IMG/VR virus record: IMGVR_UViG_3300030333_005321
Location: 1-23,050 of that record
From: a virus
Length of the DNA stretch: 23,050 nucleotides
Strand: one strand, 5' to 3'
Part shown: positions 1,372-17,756 of the stretch, piece after piece
How positions within the stretch are numbered: the stretch's first letter is position 1
Layout of the letters: each line of letters opens with the position of its first letter
The notes under the pieces: model-generated
What the model saw: only the letters and a program-made list of their open reading frames with translations
What the model was told of the DNA's origin: nothing
The model's database searches: none
Program-made: the position numbers and the translations under genes

Positions 1372-3844
1372 ACCAACTGTTCATCTGTGGGATGATAAAA
1401 AAGGTTATGAAAAGTTTCAGTTTACACCATATGCATATATGAAATCTCAATCAGGAACTTATCGTTCCTTATATGGTGATAAACTTAAAAAAGTAACATT
1501 TTGGGATCAAGAAGATTTACAATCAGGTAGAGTATTTGAATCTGATGTACCATTGGAAACTCGTGTATTAATTGATAAATACGGAGATTCCAATGAACCA
1601 TCTGTTGGACATAGAGAAATGTACTTTGATATTGAGGTTGAAGTTAAAGATGGTTTTCCTGAATGGAAATCCGCTAAGAATAAGATTACAGCTATTGCTT
1701 TATATGATAAAACAGCAGATAAATATCATTGTTATGTGTTAGGTAATATACCAAAAACAGAGGTTGTAGAATCATTTCAATCAGAAGAAGAATTGTTACA
1801 GGCTTTCTATAAAAAATATCTTGAAATCAATCCAACTATATTGAGTGGTTGGAACATTGACGGATTTGATATACCTTATTTATATAACAGAACTGTTAGA
1901 GTTATGGGTGAACAAATGGCTAATTGTATTTCACCAATAGGAAATGTATATTACAATGAACATCAGAGTAGATATAAAATAGCTGGTGTATCGTGTTTAG
2001 ATTATTTGGCTTTATATAAATTGTATACTTACACACAACAATCATCATATAGATTAGATTTCATAGGACAACTTGAAGTTGGTATTGGTAAAGTTGAGTA
2101 TGAGGGAACACTTGATGATTTGTATAGAGATGATATAAACAAATATGTAGAGTATAACTTAAATGATGTTGTGATTGTGAAAGAACTTGATGATAAGTTA
2201 AAGTTTATTGAGTTGGCTTGTGGTGTAAGTCACTTAGGACACATATCATATGAGGATATATTTTTCAGTAGTAGGTATTTAGAAGGCGCCATGCTCGTAT
2301 ATATGAAAGATATTGGAGTAGTTGCACCTAATAAACCACCTAGAACAGAGATGGGTTCAACTGATAAATTTACTGGTGCTTATGTTAAAGACCCAATACC
2401 AGGTAGATATGATTGGGTGTTTGATTTGGATTTGACATCAATGTATCCTTCAACAATTATGACTTTGAATATATCACCTGAAACAAAGATTGGTAAAATA
2501 AATGGTTGGGATGCAGAAGAATTTATTAAAGGAACATCTAAAACTTATTCATTGGAAAAGAATGGTAAAGTACAAGGGAGTTTAACAAATATACAATTAA
2601 AAGATATGTTAGATAAAAACAAAGTATCTATATCTTCAAATGGTATTATGTATCGTTATGATAAAAAGGGTTTGATACCTATATTATTAGAGAAGTGGTT
2701 TAATGAAAGAGTTGAATATAAAAGGTTGATGAAGAAACATGGTGATGAAGGTGATATTAAACAGAAAGATTATTTTAATAGACGACAACATATTCAGAAG
2801 ATTGTATTAAATTCATTATATGGTGTATTAGGATTACCTGTATTTAGATTCTATGATGTAGATAACGCAGAAGCTACAACTGTAACAGGACAAGAATTGA
2901 TTAAATTTACAGAGAAGATTGCTAATTTCTATTATAATCAACAATTAGGTGATAAAAAAGATTATTGTATTTACACCGATACAGATTCAGTATTTTATCC
3001 TGCTAAACCATTGGTTGAAAAAAGGTATCCAAATGCAGATGTAAATGACGAAGAGTTTATGACAGAACAGATATTGAATGTAGCTAAAGAAGTTCAAGAT
3101 TATATTAATAAGTCTTATGATTTATTTGCTGGTAAAATGTTAAATGTTAAAGGTAGTCATAGATTTGATATTAAACAAGAGTGTATTGCTAAATCAGCAT
3201 TTTGGGTAACTAAAAAAAGATATGGACAATGGATTATCAACGATGGTGGTTTTAAATGTGATAGACTTGATGTTAAAGGTTTAGATATTGTTAGAAGTAA
3301 TTTCCCACCAGCTATGAGAGATTTGATGACTGGTGTTCTTAAAGATATATTATCAAATGCAGATAAAGATATTATTGATGATAAGATAGTTGAATTTAAA
3401 AAGGTTATGAAGACAAAACCTATTGCTGATATTGCTTTACCAACTGGTGTTCGTGGTTTGACTAAATATAAAGATACAAATGCAAGAGGTAAGTTTAATG
3501 ATAAAACTATTTTTACAAAGACAAAGAAATCTACACCAGTCCATGTAAAAGCTGCAATCAAATATAATGATTTGTTAAAGTATTATAGTTTAGATAATAT
3601 AGAACCTATCAAACATAAAGAAAAGATTAAGTGGGCATATATGAAAAAAAATCCTTTGGGTATTGATGCTCTTGCATTCAAAGGTTATGATGATCCAAAA
3701 GAGATATTGGATTTCATTAAACAATATATAGATCATGATAGATTGTTTGAGGGAGCATTACAAAAAAAGATTAAAATGTTTTATGAGGCATTAAGTTGGG
3801 AATTACCAGTAGACAAACAAAATACTATAGCAAGATTTTTATAA
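1331..3844 (+). CDS. 43: Family B DNA polymerase, T4 gp43-like
   Basis: The phage replicative polymerase, 837 residues against about 898 in T4. The 3'-5' exonuclease motifs are intact: DIE at 100-102, NIDGFD ending at D180, and YNLND at 275-279. The polymerase motifs are also intact: motif A DLTSMYPS with D367, motif B KIVLNSLYG at about 490-498, motif C YTDTDS with D550 and D552, and a KKRYG (KxY) motif further on. The start appears to be TTG at 1331, giving MYQNIYIEKT, with AAGAGG five bases upstream; the next ATG in frame lies inside the conserved N-terminal domain. It overlaps the nucleotidyltransferase gene and is followed by the clamp gene, its processivity partner. Confidence 0.97.
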   Translation: MYQNIYIEKTKQGKPTVHLWDDKKGYEKFQFTPYAYMKSQSGTYRSLYGDKLKKVTFWDQEDLQSGRVFESDVPLETRVLIDKYGDSNEPSVGHREMYFDIEVEVKDGFPEWKSAKNKITAIALYDKTADKYHCYVLGNIPKTEVVESFQSEEELLQAFYKKYLEINPTILSGWNIDGFDIPYLYNRTVRVMGEQMANCISPIGNVYYNEHQSRYKIAGVSCLDYLALYKLYTYTQQSSYRLDFIGQLEVGIGKVEYEGTLDDLYRDDINKYVEYNLNDVVIVKELDDKLKFIELACGVSHLGHISYEDIFFSSRYLEGAMLVYMKDIGVVAPNKPPRTEMGSTDKFTGAYVKDPIPGRYDWVFDLDLTSMYPSTIMTLNISPETKIGKINGWDAEEFIKGTSKTYSLEKNGKVQGSLTNIQLKDMLDKNKVSISSNGIMYRYDKKGLIPILLEKWFNERVEYKRLMKKHGDEGDIKQKDYFNRRQHIQKIVLNSLYGVLGLPVFRFYDVDNAEATTVTGQELIKFTEKIANFYYNQQLGDKKDYCIYTDTDSVFYPAKPLVEKRYPNADVNDEEFMTEQILNVAKEVQDYINKSYDLFAGKMLNVKGSHRFDIKQECIAKSAFWVTKKRYGQWIINDGGFKCDRLDVKGLDIVRSNFPPAMRDLMTGVLKDILSNADKDIIDDKIVEFKKVMKTKPIADIALPTGVRGLTKYKDTNARGKFNDKTIFTKTKKSTPVHVKAAIKYNDLLKYYSLDNIEPIKHKEKIKWAYMKKNPLGIDALAFKGYDDPKEILDFIKQYIDHDRLFEGALQKKIKMFYEALSWELPVDKQNTIARFL

Positions 3845-9792: not shown

Positions 9793-11226
9793 ATGGGTGA
9801 TATAAAATTACCAAAATTAAAACCAGTAGGTAAAGATAAACAAAAGACGATAAAGAAGAAAAAAATACTTCTGATGTCAGATGATTTACGAATGCACTCT
9901 GGAATAGCTACTCAATCAAAAGAATTTATAATGGGAACAATCAAGCATTACGATTGGGTTCAAATTGGTGGTGCTATTAAACATCCCGATGAAGGTAAAA
10001 TCATTGATATGAGTGAAGCTGTTCGTAATGAAACTGATGTAAAAGATGGATACCTTAAAATATATCCTATAAGTGGTTATGGTAATCCAGATTTGTTACG
10101 AGAAATAATTGAAATAGAAAAACCAGATGCTATTTTACACTTTACAGACCCAAGATTTTGGATTTGGTTTTATAATATGGAACATGAGATAAGAGCAAAA
10201 ATTCCTATCTTTTATTATAACATATGGGATGATTTACCAGATCCAATGTATAATAGAGATTATTATAGAAGTTCAGACTTACTTATGGGAATTTCAAAAC
10301 AGACATATGGTATTAATAAAAGAATTTTAAAAGATTATGATTATGAAGATTGGCAAATTAAATATGTACCTCATGGTGTATCTTCAAAAAGATTTTTTAA
10401 AGTTCATAGTCAAAATGAAAATTTCAAACAATTTGAATCTAAATATAAATTAGATAAATACAAATTTAAAATACTCTATCTTAATAGAAATATCAGAAGA
10501 AAATGTCCAGGTGATGTAGCATTAGCTTACAAACATATGATGGATAAACTCACACCTGAACAAAGAAAAGAATGTGTATTTGTATTTCATTCAGCACCAG
10601 TTGATGAGAATGGAACAGATATGAGAGTGTTGTGTAAAACATTACTCCCAGAATATCCTGTTATATTTACTTATGATATAAAAGGTTCTCCATTTAATGA
10701 TGTTGAAATAAATTATCTTTATAACTCTTGTGATGTTTATATCAATATGGCTTCTAATGAAGGATTCGGTTTAGGTTCACTTGAAGCGTTAACTGTGGGA
10801 ACACCAATAGTATTAAATGTTACAGGTGGAATGCAAGACCAATGTGGATTCAAAAATGAAAAAGGTGAATACCTAACTGCTGATGATTATATTGAATTAG
10901 GTTCTAATCACAGAGGTAAATATAAAGAACATGGTGAATGGGTTGAACCTGTATTTCCAAGTAATATATCATTAGCTGGTTCACCACAAACACCATATAT
11001 TTTTGATGACAGATGTCAATATGAAGATGCTGGTGATGCACTTTTAAATTGGTATCACGCTGGTCCTACCGAAAGAGAACGATGTGGTGAGGTTGGTAGA
11101 AAATGGGTATTAAGTGATGATGCAAAAATGACAACAAAACATATGTCAAATAGCTTCATAGAAAGTATGGATAATGCTTTTGAAAATTGGAAACCGAAAG
11201 AAAAATATACAATGGAGGTTATTTAA
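9793..11226 (+). CDS. GT-B glycosyltransferase with N-terminal LPKLK peptide
   Basis: A 477-residue GT4-type glycosyltransferase. The N-terminal Rossmann domain starts at KKILLMSDDLRMHSGIATQ, the usual glycine-containing loop; the C-terminal donor domain has ILYLNRNIRRKCPG, then YINMASNEGFGLGSLEAL, the EGFGxxxLEA (ExE) motif that binds the sugar nucleotide, and TPIVLNVTGG. Before the fold comes a basic leader GDIKLPKLKPVGKDKQK whose IKLPKLK core recurs in the next two proteins. AAGGAG lies upstream of ATG 9793. It overlaps the next gene by one base (TAATG). Donor and acceptor are unknown. Confidence 0.88.
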   Translation: MGDIKLPKLKPVGKDKQKTIKKKKILLMSDDLRMHSGIATQSKEFIMGTIKHYDWVQIGGAIKHPDEGKIIDMSEAVRNETDVKDGYLKIYPISGYGNPDLLREIIEIEKPDAILHFTDPRFWIWFYNMEHEIRAKIPIFYYNIWDDLPDPMYNRDYYRSSDLLMGISKQTYGINKRILKDYDYEDWQIKYVPHGVSSKRFFKVHSQNENFKQFESKYKLDKYKFKILYLNRNIRRKCPGDVALAYKHMMDKLTPEQRKECVFVFHSAPVDENGTDMRVLCKTLLPEYPVIFTYDIKGSPFNDVEINYLYNSCDVYINMASNEGFGLGSLEALTVGTPIVLNVTGGMQDQCGFKNEKGEYLTADDYIELGSNHRGKYKEHGEWVEPVFPSNISLAGSPQTPYIFDDRCQYEDAGDALLNWYHAGPTERERCGEVGRKWVLSDDAKMTTKHMSNSFIESMDNAFENWKPKEKYTMEVI

Positions 11227-12596
11227 TGAAAAGATTAATATTGATATGTGCGCCAGTAACATCAAGAAGTGGATATGGAGCTCATGCTAGAGATTTAGTT
11301 AGTTCTTTGTTAAAAGACGATAAGTATGATATAAAGATACAGGATGTTCGTTGGGGTGATTGTCCTAGAAATGCTCTTGATTTAAATAATCTAAATGATA
11401 AAAAAATATTTGATTGTATTTTGAAAGAACCAAAAATAGATAGAAAACCAGATATTTATATTGATATTAGAATACCAAACGAATTTCAACAAATTGGTAA
11501 TATTAATATTGGTATAACTGCAGGAGTTGAAACAACTATCGTATCAGGAAATTGGTTAGAAGCTTGTAATAAAATGGATTTAATTATTGTTCCATCAGAA
11601 CATTCTAAAGGTGGTTTTGTAAATACAATTTATGACAAAATTCAAAATTTACCAGATGGTCAACAACAACAAGTTGGTGAAATGAAAATTGAAAAGCCAA
11701 TAGAAGTTTTATTTGAAGGTGCAGATGAAGATATTTACAAACCATTATCTAAAGATGAAATAGATTCTGAATTTTTTGATTGGTTAAACAATGAAGTACC
11801 TGAAAAGTTTGCTTTTCTTTCAGTAGGACAATGGGCTCAAGGTAATTATGGTGAAGATAGAAAAGATTTAGGTAAAACAATAAAAGTTTTTTATGAAACT
11901 TTCGCAAATCAAAAGAAACAACCAGCTCTTATTATGAAAACAAGTGGAGCAAGTTATTCTGTTATGGACAAAGAAGCTACTATAGAAAAAATGAATAACA
12001 TTAAGTCAATGTTTCCATCAGATTGGAAATTACCTAATGTTTATTTATTGCATGGTGATTTGTCAAATGAAGAAATGAACTATCTTTATAATCATCCAAA
12101 AGTAAAATCATTTTTGTCATTTACTCACGGTGAAGGATTTGGTAGACCTCTACTTGAAGCAACGATGACTGGACTACCTGTTATAGTAAGTAACTGGAGT
12201 GGGCATATAGATTTTTTAGATGGTAATAAATCTATATTGTTAAATGGTGAACTTCAACAGGTTCCACCATCAGTTGTTTGGAAAGATATAATACTTGCAG
12301 AAAGTAAATGGTTTGTTGTTAATGAAATAGAAGCTTCAAAGGCTATTAAATCTATGTTTGAAGATAATAAAACATTCAAGAAAAAAGCTAAAGAGTTAAT
12401 GGATATTAATAGAAACAAATTTACATTGAATAAGATGTCTGATAAATTTAATAGTATAATCCAAAAGTATCTTGATAATTCACCAGCACAGGTATCATTA
12501 AATCTTCCGAAATTAAAAAAAGTTAGTGATTCTAAATCAGAATCACCAAAAATTAAATTACCAAAATTAAAAAAATTAACGGAGGCAACGGTATGA
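11226..12596 (+). CDS. GT-B glycosyltransferase with two C-terminal LPKLK peptides
   Basis: A 456-residue GT4-type glycosyltransferase: N-terminal LILICAPVTSRSGYGAHARDL, a mid-protein VLFEGAD, donor domain with FLSVGQW, LLHGDLSNEEM, and HGEGFGRPLLEATMTGLPVIV as ExE motif. After the fold, the last 35 residues are a basic tail with LNLPKLKKV and IKLPKLKKL, separated by a serine/lysine linker. ATG 11226 is chosen because GGAGG lies at 11214-11218 and it overlaps the previous stop. It ends in an ATGA overlap with the next gene. It probably acts together with the preceding glycosyltransferase, with which it shares the peptide. Confidence 0.88.
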   Translation: MKRLILICAPVTSRSGYGAHARDLVSSLLKDDKYDIKIQDVRWGDCPRNALDLNNLNDKKIFDCILKEPKIDRKPDIYIDIRIPNEFQQIGNINIGITAGVETTIVSGNWLEACNKMDLIIVPSEHSKGGFVNTIYDKIQNLPDGQQQQVGEMKIEKPIEVLFEGADEDIYKPLSKDEIDSEFFDWLNNEVPEKFAFLSVGQWAQGNYGEDRKDLGKTIKVFYETFANQKKQPALIMKTSGASYSVMDKEATIEKMNNIKSMFPSDWKLPNVYLLHGDLSNEEMNYLYNHPKVKSFLSFTHGEGFGRPLLEATMTGLPVIVSNWSGHIDFLDGNKSILLNGELQQVPPSVVWKDIILAESKWFVVNEIEASKAIKSMFEDNKTFKKKAKELMDINRNKFTLNKMSDKFNSIIQKYLDNSPAQVSLNLPKLKKVSDSKSESPKIKLPKLKKLTEATV

Positions 12597-13087
12597 ATAT
12601 AATAAGTAATTGCCCATTATGTGGAGAAAAATCATTACATGTAATTGGAGAAGAAGGAACATCCCAGACTCAACAATGCATAAATTGTGGGTATGCTACA
12701 ACAGATAAATTTGTTGGTAGTATAAAAGATAATGAGATGTATAAAACTTTACCAGAAGAAATGCAATCTTGGGCTAAAGAGAAAAATGGTAGAATTTGGA
12801 TTCCATCAATGATAACACTTCCATTTGGAACTATATATCCAATAAAAATAGATACTGTAATGAAATGGGCATGCGCTGAGATGGTTGATATACCCGAAGA
12901 AAATAGAAAGAATTATCCTGTTGAGGGTCAGGAAGGTAAATTTCATACAAAAATGTATGATACGGATAATCAACAAATATTTGATAATTTTCTTGATGCT
13001 ATGGCTGATATGAATCAAAAAGCAAAAGATAATGCAGTTCCTGAAAAAAAGATAAATCTTCCAAAATTAAAAAAATTAGATGGCTAA
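12593..13087 (+). CDS. Zinc-ribbon protein with C-terminal LPKLK peptide, unknown function
   Basis: A 164-residue protein. The first 40 residues form a zinc ribbon (CPLCG ... CINCG); the middle, WAKEKNGRIWIPSMITLP followed by FGTIYPI, is a conserved-looking beta segment; then comes an acidic helix, and finally INLPKLKKLDG at the extreme C-terminus. The same nonapeptide core ends the preceding glycosyltransferase and begins the one before. I do not recognise the central domain. GGAGG at 12581-12585 precedes its ATG. It overlaps the next gene by 8 nt. Confidence 0.75.
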   Translation: MNIISNCPLCGEKSLHVIGEEGTSQTQQCINCGYATTDKFVGSIKDNEMYKTLPEEMQSWAKEKNGRIWIPSMITLPFGTIYPIKIDTVMKWACAEMVDIPEENRKNYPVEGQEGKFHTKMYDTDNQQIFDNFLDAMADMNQKAKDNAVPEKKINLPKLKKLDG

Positions 13088-13646
13088 AACTAAATACAAT
13101 CATAGAATTTTAGTAGAAAGTTATCAGATGGCTAGGACTAAATCTGTTTATCCCGGAATGGTACTTGACTTTAAATACAAAGGTGAACATATTTTTGATG
13201 AAAATCCTATGGTTTTGGTTCTTTGGAATGATTATAAAAAATATAAAATACATGGAATAAATTTAAATTATTTATCGAATTCTAGAATAGGAGTTTTATT
13301 TGATAAATTAATTGAAGGTTCTAAAATATATAATCAGGGTAAACGTACTGGAAATCCATTTGTTATACAAGATCAAGATGATGAAAGTGGTTACGATGAT
13401 AATTTACCATATAGAAATTTATTAAAAAAACCATATACAAGAATGAAACTTCCGACCTACAGAGAAAATAGAGGTGGTAATCCACTTTCAGATGCAGAAG
13501 CAAAAAGACAAATGAAAGTATTATACGAAAAAATTATCAAAAGATTTGTATATAGGGGAAAAGATTATAATGTATATAGAACTTATAAATATGATAAAAT
13601 GGTAACTTTAAGAGTTTTAAATTTAAATTTAGGAAAAATAAGATAA
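13080..13646 (+). CDS. Hypothetical phage protein
   Basis: A 188-residue basic protein. Near the N-terminus lies YPGMVLDFKYKGEHIFDENP, then MVLVLWNDYKKYKIHGINLNYLS, a beta-rich pattern, and a C-terminal helix with FVYRGKDYNVYRTYKYDKM. The HGINLNYL segment reminds me of unannotated proteins of T4-like phages, but I cannot name a family. The start lies within the last codons of the zinc-ribbon gene with only a weak ribosome binding site. An octamer TATAAATA at 13584-13591 lies inside this gene and may be chance. The stop overlaps the next start. Confidence 0.7.
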   Translation: MAKTKYNHRILVESYQMARTKSVYPGMVLDFKYKGEHIFDENPMVLVLWNDYKKYKIHGINLNYLSNSRIGVLFDKLIEGSKIYNQGKRTGNPFVIQDQDDESGYDDNLPYRNLLKKPYTRMKLPTYRENRGGNPLSDAEAKRQMKVLYEKIIKRFVYRGKDYNVYRTYKYDKMVTLRVLNLNLGKIR

Positions 13647-14266
13647 TGAAAATAAGTTATAGTATATTAACTCACAACGAAACTGACTCGTTATCAGAGT
13701 TAATTCAATTTTTAGTAAAACATAAAGATGAAGAAGATGAGATAGTAATTCTTGATGACTTTTCAGACAATGAAAAGACAAAAGAGATATTAGATAGTAT
13801 GTGTTCTATATATGATATAACATTTGAACAAAGACATCTTCATAAAGATTACGCAGGACAAAAAAATCACTTGACTGGTATGTGTACAGGTGACTATATT
13901 TTTAATCTTGATGCTGACGAACTACCAAATAAATGGTTAATGAAAAATATAAAAGAAATATTAGAAGCAAATCCAACAATAGATTTATATTGGGTGCCAA
14001 GAGTTAATACTGTAGAAGGGTTAACACAAGAACATATTGATAAATGGAGATGGCAGGTTAATGAAAAAGGTTGGGTGAATTGGCCTGATTATCAAGGTAG
14101 GATTTGGAGAAATCGTTCAAATATTAGGTGGGAAAAACCAGTACATGAACAATTAACAGGTTATAAAGAACATACATATCTTCCAACGGAAGAAGAGTTT
14201 TGTTTTTATCATCATAAAGAAATAGATAGACAAGAAAAACAAAATGAGTTTTATAATACAATATGA
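13646..14266 (+). CDS. Family 2 glycosyltransferase (GT-A)
   Basis: A 206-residue short GT2-type enzyme. It shows the usual start ISYSILTHNETDSL, then EIVILDDFSDNEKT (nucleotide-binding DD), and GDYIFNLDADELPNKWL, where DAD is the metal-binding DXD. The later VPRVNTVEG and WPDYQGRIWRN stretch resembles acceptor-side regions of WaaE/KdtX-like GT2 enzymes. No membrane segment is visible. It starts in TAATG and ends in ATGA overlaps, so it is coupled on both sides. The sugar it moves is unknown. Confidence 0.88.
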   Translation: MKISYSILTHNETDSLSELIQFLVKHKDEEDEIVILDDFSDNEKTKEILDSMCSIYDITFEQRHLHKDYAGQKNHLTGMCTGDYIFNLDADELPNKWLMKNIKEILEANPTIDLYWVPRVNTVEGLTQEHIDKWRWQVNEKGWVNWPDYQGRIWRNRSNIRWEKPVHEQLTGYKEHTYLPTEEEFCFYHHKEIDRQEKQNEFYNTI

Positions 14267-16291: not shown

Positions 16292-17001
16292 TGAAACATA
16301 AAGGAGTAAGTATACTGTGTCCGACTAGAGGAAGACCAGATCAAGTTAAAGAATTAATATCTACATGTATTGGTAATTCAAAAGGTATTTTTAAGATAGA
16401 ATTTGTTTTTAGAGTTGATGATGATGATTTGGAAACTATACACACATTACAAAAATTATCTAAAGATAATGAAAATATTAAGTATATAGAAGGACCTAGA
16501 GGTAATGGTAATTTAAGTAAGATGTGGAATGAATGTTATGAAAAAAGTACAGGTGAATTATTTATGCTTTGTGGTGATGATATAAGATTTAGAACTGGTA
16601 ATTGGGATGTAAAACTTAACGAAAAAGTTTCAAAATATCCAGATAAAATTGGATTCTTTTTTACTTATGATGGTTTTCATGGAAAAGGTGCGGGTGGTAC
16701 TCATGGATTTTTACATAAAAATTGGGTAGAAGCTGTAGGAACTTTTTGTCCTCCATATTTTCAAAGTGATTTTAATGATAGATGGTTTAATGAAATTTCT
16801 AAAAAGCTTGATAGACATATTTTTGTAGATATATTTACAGAACATTTACACCCAGCGGCAAAAAAAGGTGAATGGGATCAAACGCACAAAGATAGATTGG
16901 AAAGACATAAAAAACAAGATGGTGAAAAAATATGGAAAGAAAAATCTAATGAAAGAAAAGAATGGGTAAAGAAATTAAAAAATGTTATGAAGAGAAAATA
17001 A
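16291..17001 (+). CDS. Family 2-like glycosyltransferase (GT-A)
   Basis: A 236-residue protein with the GT-A pattern: GVSILCPTRGRPDQVKEL at the start, VFRVDDDDLET as nucleotide-binding acidic cluster, and GNLSKMWNECYEKSTGELF followed by MLCGDDIRF, whose GDD sits where DXD is expected. The later part has GFFFTYDGFHGKGAGGTHGF and a His-rich HLHPAAKKGEWD region, then a very basic helix. It lacks membrane segments. Start and stop both overlap neighbours as TAATG. Donor and acceptor are unknown. Confidence 0.8.
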   Translation: MKHKGVSILCPTRGRPDQVKELISTCIGNSKGIFKIEFVFRVDDDDLETIHTLQKLSKDNENIKYIEGPRGNGNLSKMWNECYEKSTGELFMLCGDDIRFRTGNWDVKLNEKVSKYPDKIGFFFTYDGFHGKGAGGTHGFLHKNWVEAVGTFCPPYFQSDFNDRWFNEISKKLDRHIFVDIFTEHLHPAAKKGEWDQTHKDRLERHKKQDGEKIWKEKSNERKEWVKKLKNVMKRK

Positions 17002-17756
17002 TGAAATTAAGGGATAAAATATCAAATTGGTTAAATGATTATTTAGTAGATAATAATTTAGATACATTTGTGATAGGTATTTCAGGAGGAATTGACTCTG
17101 CTGTAACTTCAACATTATGTGCAAGAACTGGTAGAAAAACATATGTTGTAGTAATGCCAATCCATCAGAACCCTGAAGAAACACAGAGAGGTGATGACCA
17201 TTGTCATTGGTTAAAAGAAACATATCCAAATGTAGAACAAATTAATGTGGAGTTAAGTAGTATCTATGATAAATTTTTAGTTGAAATTCCAAGTAAATTT
17301 CATTCAGGTTTAACATTAGCAAACACAAGAGCAAGAATCAGAATGTCAACTCTATATATGATTGCAGGAAGTTCTAATGGTATAGTAGCTGGTACTGGAA
17401 ATAAAGTTGAGGATTTTGGAGTTGGATTCTTTACAAAATATGGTGATGGTGGGGTTGATATTAGTCCAATAGCTGATTTAATGAAATCAGAAGTATATAA
17501 ATTAGGAAGAGAATTAGGAGTTATAGATAGTATTTTAAATGCTGCCCCAACCGATGGTTTATGGGATGATGATAGAACAGATGAAGATCAGTTAGGAGTA
17601 TCTTATGATGAACTTGAATGGGCTATGAATTATGATGGTTCAGATATAGATGAAAGACAACAACATATTTTAGATGTGTATAATAAACACAGAAAACAAA
17701 ATTTACATAAGATGAAAGAGATACCAATTTTTAAAAAAAAGGATCAAAGGTTATGA
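17001..17756 (+). CDS. nadE: Ammonia-dependent NAD+ synthetase
   Basis: A 251-residue protein with all NadE landmarks: the ATP pyrophosphatase loop SGGIDSA at 28-34, the LANTRARIRMSTLYMIA helix, GTGNKVEDFGVGFFTKYGDG, the ISPIADLMKSEVYKLGRELG segment, and APTDGLW followed by DRTDEDQLGVSYDELE. It amidates deamido-NAD to NAD using ATP and ammonia; no glutaminase domain is present. ATG 17001 overlaps the previous stop; a longer frame from 16962 would overlap that gene by 40 nt. It lies among NAD-using sugar enzymes (15296, 18511, 21194), so it may sustain NAD supply for them, which is inference. Confidence 0.93.
   Translation: MKLRDKISNWLNDYLVDNNLDTFVIGISGGIDSAVTSTLCARTGRKTYVVVMPIHQNPEETQRGDDHCHWLKETYPNVEQINVELSSIYDKFLVEIPSKFHSGLTLANTRARIRMSTLYMIAGSSNGIVAGTGNKVEDFGVGFFTKYGDGGVDISPIADLMKSEVYKLGRELGVIDSILNAAPTDGLWDDDRTDEDQLGVSYDELEWAMNYDGSDIDERQQHILDVYNKHRKQNLHKMKEIPIFKKKDQRL

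Follow-up and report, generated by a model that had tools for sequence, protein, structure and literature searches.

A conserved terminal LPKLKK peptide marks a glycosyltransferase pair of uncultured T4-like phages and may serve as a docking motif

An eight-residue peptide with the consensus LPKLKK is carried at the ends of two adjacent glycosyltransferases, here named GT1 and GT2, in a large family of uncultured T4-like phages. The tag is genuine: it occurs at protein ends and in tandem, its peptide sequence is conserved, one gene set alone carries it and, as modelled, it is not folded onto GT2. We propose, with a probability of roughly 0.6, that it is a short linear docking motif through which the glycosyltransferase pair is tethered to one shared partner, making up a phage glycosylation complex.

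The window, that is the whole stretch of DNA analysed, is a virus record of 23,050 bases, AT-rich (GC 28.9%), which encodes a family B DNA polymerase, two clamp-loader proteins and a probable sliding clamp, the latter named from its place beside the clamp loaders and without a match in PHROGs. The polymerase C-terminus (3818-3841) is a PIP-box-like peptide, QNTIARFL, and homologues end in KQNSIERFF or TAKKFFxF. The sugar-nucleotide genes comprise an epimerase, a Gfo/Idh protein, a formyltransferase, a DegT aminotransferase and a UDP-sugar dehydrogenase, and an NAD synthase gene (16962-17756) lies within the sugar operon. The gene block under study runs in the order GT1, GT2, zinc ribbon, P188 (13080-13646) and GTA, with the start of GT2 overlapping the stop of GT1 (Table 1). 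The GTA proteins of the window and of its homologues share a strongly conserved end, HPKxIxRQEKQNxxYxTL.

Table 1. Tagged genes, tag copies and candidate partner in the window.
Feature	Position	Strand	Evidence
GT1, GT-B/GT4 glycosyltransferase with one N-terminal tag	9793..11226	+	ORF; PF00534 E 3.6e-8
N-terminal tag IKLPKLKPV, GT1 residues 4-12	9802..9828	+	sequence; homologous N-terminal tags on other GT1s
GT2, GT-B/GT4 glycosyltransferase with two-copy C-terminal tag	11226..12596	+	ORF; PF00534 E 5.2e-7
GT2 disordered C-terminal tail, residues 419-456	12480..12593	+	pLDDT 51-69, no secondary structure
GT2 tag copy 1, LNLPKLKKV	12498..12524	+	sequence; kept in relatives
GT2 tag copy 2, IKLPKLKKL	12552..12578	+	sequence; kept in relatives
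Zinc-ribbon protein (CPxC...CxxC) with C-terminal tag	12593..13087	+	ORF; invariant cysteines, appended tail; model
Zinc-ribbon C-terminal tag INLPKLKKL	13052..13078	+	sequence; also in other loci
GTA, conserved GT2-family (PF00535) glycosyltransferase, tagless, candidate partner	13646..14266	+	PF00535 E 1.6e-16

The first-pass annotation had reported four copies of LPKLK, and all four were found where it placed them: at 9808 (residues 6-10 of GT1, MGDIKLPKLKPV), at 12504 and 12558 in the C-terminal tail of GT2, and at 13058 at the C-terminus of the zinc-ribbon protein, which reads INLPKLKKLDG up to its stop. The case proved stronger than had been claimed, with 0.016 copies expected by chance in the 7,583 residues of the window, under either composition or a first-order Markov model, against the four observed, and with no LPKLK in any other frame of the window. 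The description of the three tagged proteins as otherwise unrelated holds for the zinc-ribbon protein but not for the two enzymes, which are both GT-B/GT4 glycosyltransferases (PF00534) and fall into one BLAST cluster. Their scores against PF00534 (Glycos_transf_1) were 33.6 bits for GT1 and 29.8 bits for GT2, at a cut-off of 26.4.

The AlphaFold2 model of GT2 (pLDDT 92.9, with most of the domain above 90) matched many GT-B enzymes in a structure search, the best PDB match being 3oy2, a chlorella-virus glycosyltransferase (E 9.3e-18), and its tail was left unstructured and undocked. The model of the zinc-ribbon protein (pLDDT 92.9), for which a fold search returned no solved relatives at E <= 0.001, likewise ends in a tag-bearing coil (pLDDT 73-77). 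As modelled, the copies on these two proteins thus lie outside the folded domains, as had been suggested, and both tails are disordered segments of the kind in which short linear docking motifs are sought. In GT1, sequence comparison showed the tag to be an N-terminal extension that is absent from most homologues. The GT1 region of phage Mel-JY01 (L003, 7498-8989) is annotated as two ORFs, both of which are matched by the GT1 of the window.

IMG/VR was scanned with alignments of GT2 and GT1, giving 474 and 582 confirmed relatives, respectively, of which 80 each were fetched. The motif (V/P)x(L/I)xLP(K/T/Q)LKK(V/I) is conserved across hundreds of IMG/VR contigs. It was present in strict form at the C-terminus of 119 of 122 distinct GT2s, in two copies in 82 and three copies in 4, and the remaining three carry degenerate copies; in a larger set of GT2s it was found in 192 of 212, the others being 11 with degenerate copies and 9 from a distant clade. 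Copies are spaced, from start to start, by 8 residues (57 cases) or by 16-18 residues (52 cases). In four GT2s (L022, L027, L096, L097) a shared tail ending in EPNKYxEGVE takes the place of the second copy, and no other protein end in the loci has this tail. A tblastn search with the tail peptide by itself gave no hits, probably owing to the low-complexity filter. A scan of genome contigs for cellular GT2 homologues returned 16 MAG contigs; those examined carry the same GT1-GT2-zinc-ribbon genes and look like misbinned phage.

The strict pattern LP[KRTQ]L[KR][KR] was then searched for in about 290 loci, which yield 5,651 non-redundant plus-strand ORFs; as the loci were fetched through GT1 and GT2, this survey covers the neighbourhoods of these two genes. 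All 324 occurrences fell on three proteins and at their ends: 278 in GT2, every one within the last 40 residues, 39 in GT1, all N-terminal, and 7 in the zinc-ribbon protein, all C-terminal. None of the 5,039 other ORFs of the loci carried the motif, including 810 that are lysine-rich, and in 32 longer records and the whole genome of phage immuto the only matches beyond the three genes were internal or in tiny ORFs. The zinc-ribbon tag also occurs in L004, L009, L011, L017, L018, L023, L024 and L028. Absence from homologues or commonness in lysine-rich proteins had been named in the first-pass annotation as grounds for abandoning the tag; both were looked for, and the tag stood. A search of the available papers found no mention of the LPKLKK motif.

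Over 209 copies, the core L-P-x-L is nearly invariant (first L 207/209, P 209/209, second L 208/209) and the lysine positions are more variable (K 167-193/209), while the codons are mixed (TTA, CTA, CTT, TTG or CTC for leucine; CCA, CCT, CCC or CCG for proline). Because synonymous codons vary around a nearly fixed L-P-x-L, it is the peptide that is under selection. A tree of 132 GT1s was built with the N-terminal extension left out; on it, the distribution of the tag requires at least nine changes, six of them forced by well-supported (starred) branches, so that the GT1 tag has been repeatedly gained or lost. The earlier proposal, of a short tag at protein ends for docking or targeting, is strongly supported by the tag's purely terminal placement, its restriction to three adjacent genes, its tandem copies and its disordered tails, and is further backed by the peptide-level conservation and the repeated gain or loss on GT1.

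That the near-invariant part of the tag is L-P-x-L and not the lysines suggests recognition by a binding groove and not by charge alone, and we infer that the tag binds a protein. It would be presented by the disordered end of GT2, always C-terminally and usually in two copies, by the N-terminus of GT1 in some lineages and by the C-terminus of the zinc-ribbon protein in the clade of the window; the tagged proteins would bind one common partner, forming a glycosylation complex fed by the sugar-nucleotide operon.

Gene content was compared for candidate partners. In 144 loci with a tag-bearing GT2 and at least 3 kb of downstream sequence, GTA was found in 142, the zinc ribbon in 121 and P188 in 63; apart from GT1 and GT2, no neighbouring gene accompanies the tag in all phages that bear it. 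Because 23 of the 144 loci have no downstream gene for it, the zinc-ribbon protein was excluded as the shared partner. GTA was likewise rejected as the sole partner, as it was not found in the tagged records L157 and L159, and as Rhodothermus phage RM378 is tagless despite having GTA-like genes. Phages immuto, Mel-JY01 and RM378 all have the same GT4 pair beside sugar-nucleotide genes; RM378 lacks the tag, and immuto, an isolated phage whose host is Flavobacterium sp. LMO8, carries it on GT2 alone.

A distant clade with homologous GT1 and GT2 (L196, L198, L200, L201, L203, L206, L212, L214, L215, L217) is tagless, with zero matches to the tag pattern in its ten records (747 kb in total) and no tag, GTA, zinc-ribbon or P188 homologues in the nine loci with enough DNA; the clade being distant, phylogeny may account for these differences in gene content. 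In four of these nine loci (L196, L200, L214, L215) the C-terminus of GT2 runs, where the tag would sit, into a PF00535 (Glycos_transf_2) domain. These fused domains, apparently of two different kinds, belong to the same Pfam family as GTA but are not matched by the GTA profile, so that identity with the GTA enzyme is not established. The fusion supports the C-terminus of GT2 as an attachment place for another glycosyltransferase, and the partner would accordingly belong to the glycosylation machinery, most likely as such an enzyme. The first-pass annotation had suggested a virion or membrane component as partner; such evidence as there is points to further glycosyltransferases.

Four other explanations were weighed. 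The tag could instead recruit the glycosyltransferases to a virion-protein acceptor such as an HK97-fold capsid, in the manner of encapsulin cargo-loading peptides, which are short N- or C-terminal tags (LTVGSLRR in M. xanthus; PMC11190991); by analogy this is conceivable, and we think it unlikely. The spacing of LTVGSLRR equals that of LKLPKLKK (L-x-hydrophobic-x-x-L-basic-basic), both being short conserved terminal peptides on enzymes, immuto has an annotated Gp23 major capsid protein, and the best PDB match of GT2 comes from a chlorella virus. The likeness is nevertheless limited to an eight-residue pattern, the core of the tag being LPKL and not VGSL and its sequence differing from the known loading peptides LTVGSLRR and DLGIRKL, no encapsulin shell is known here, and no phage structural protein carries the tag; the spacing is a lead and not membership. 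It is quite improbable that a cargo-loading-like tag docks the enzyme set on an HK97-fold capsid so that the virion would be glycosylated during assembly.

Localisation by charge, through binding of the tag to an anionic surface (membrane, DNA or RNA), would agree with the three to four lysines per copy, the tandem arrangement and the disordered tail. We nonetheless hold it to be rather improbable, given that the hydrophobic and proline core is better conserved than the lysines and that the tag is absent from the other lysine-rich ORFs of the loci.

Docking on the phage sliding clamp for DNA modification is very unlikely. In its favour, the tag resembles clamp-binding peptides in being a short C-terminal peptide on phage enzymes encoded near clamp-loader genes, and T4 alpha-glucosyltransferase, which binds the clamp gp45 and co-purifies with it (PMC13216743), is an example of such a phage enzyme being recruited by another protein, as proposed here. 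The phages' own DNA polymerases have another, PIP-like peptide at their C-terminus, which disfavours the clamp as target, and the tag is unlike a clamp box, lacking the aromatic pair and glutamine anchor of the QxxhxxFF-like pattern seen at the polymerase C-termini. Moreover, the downstream operon is for nucleotide-sugar synthesis, and the T4 enzyme belongs to another family, does not share the tag and is the only one of the two with a known DNA substrate. It is hardly credible that the peptide is a by-product of an A-rich nucleic-acid element (RNA or DNA) that lies at the gene junctions and acts in translation coupling or is a repeat. The overlap of the genes and the richness of the stretches in A would suit such an element, but synonymous codons vary while residues stay constant and the GT1 copies follow a start codon.

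Glycosyltransferases are common in phages, and their acceptors and organisation are mostly unknown. A tag that hundreds of phages carry on a single enzyme pair and, the zinc-ribbon protein apart, on nothing else surveyed would offer a bait for the partner and the acceptor of these enzymes, as well as a handle for naming uncharacterised gene clusters.
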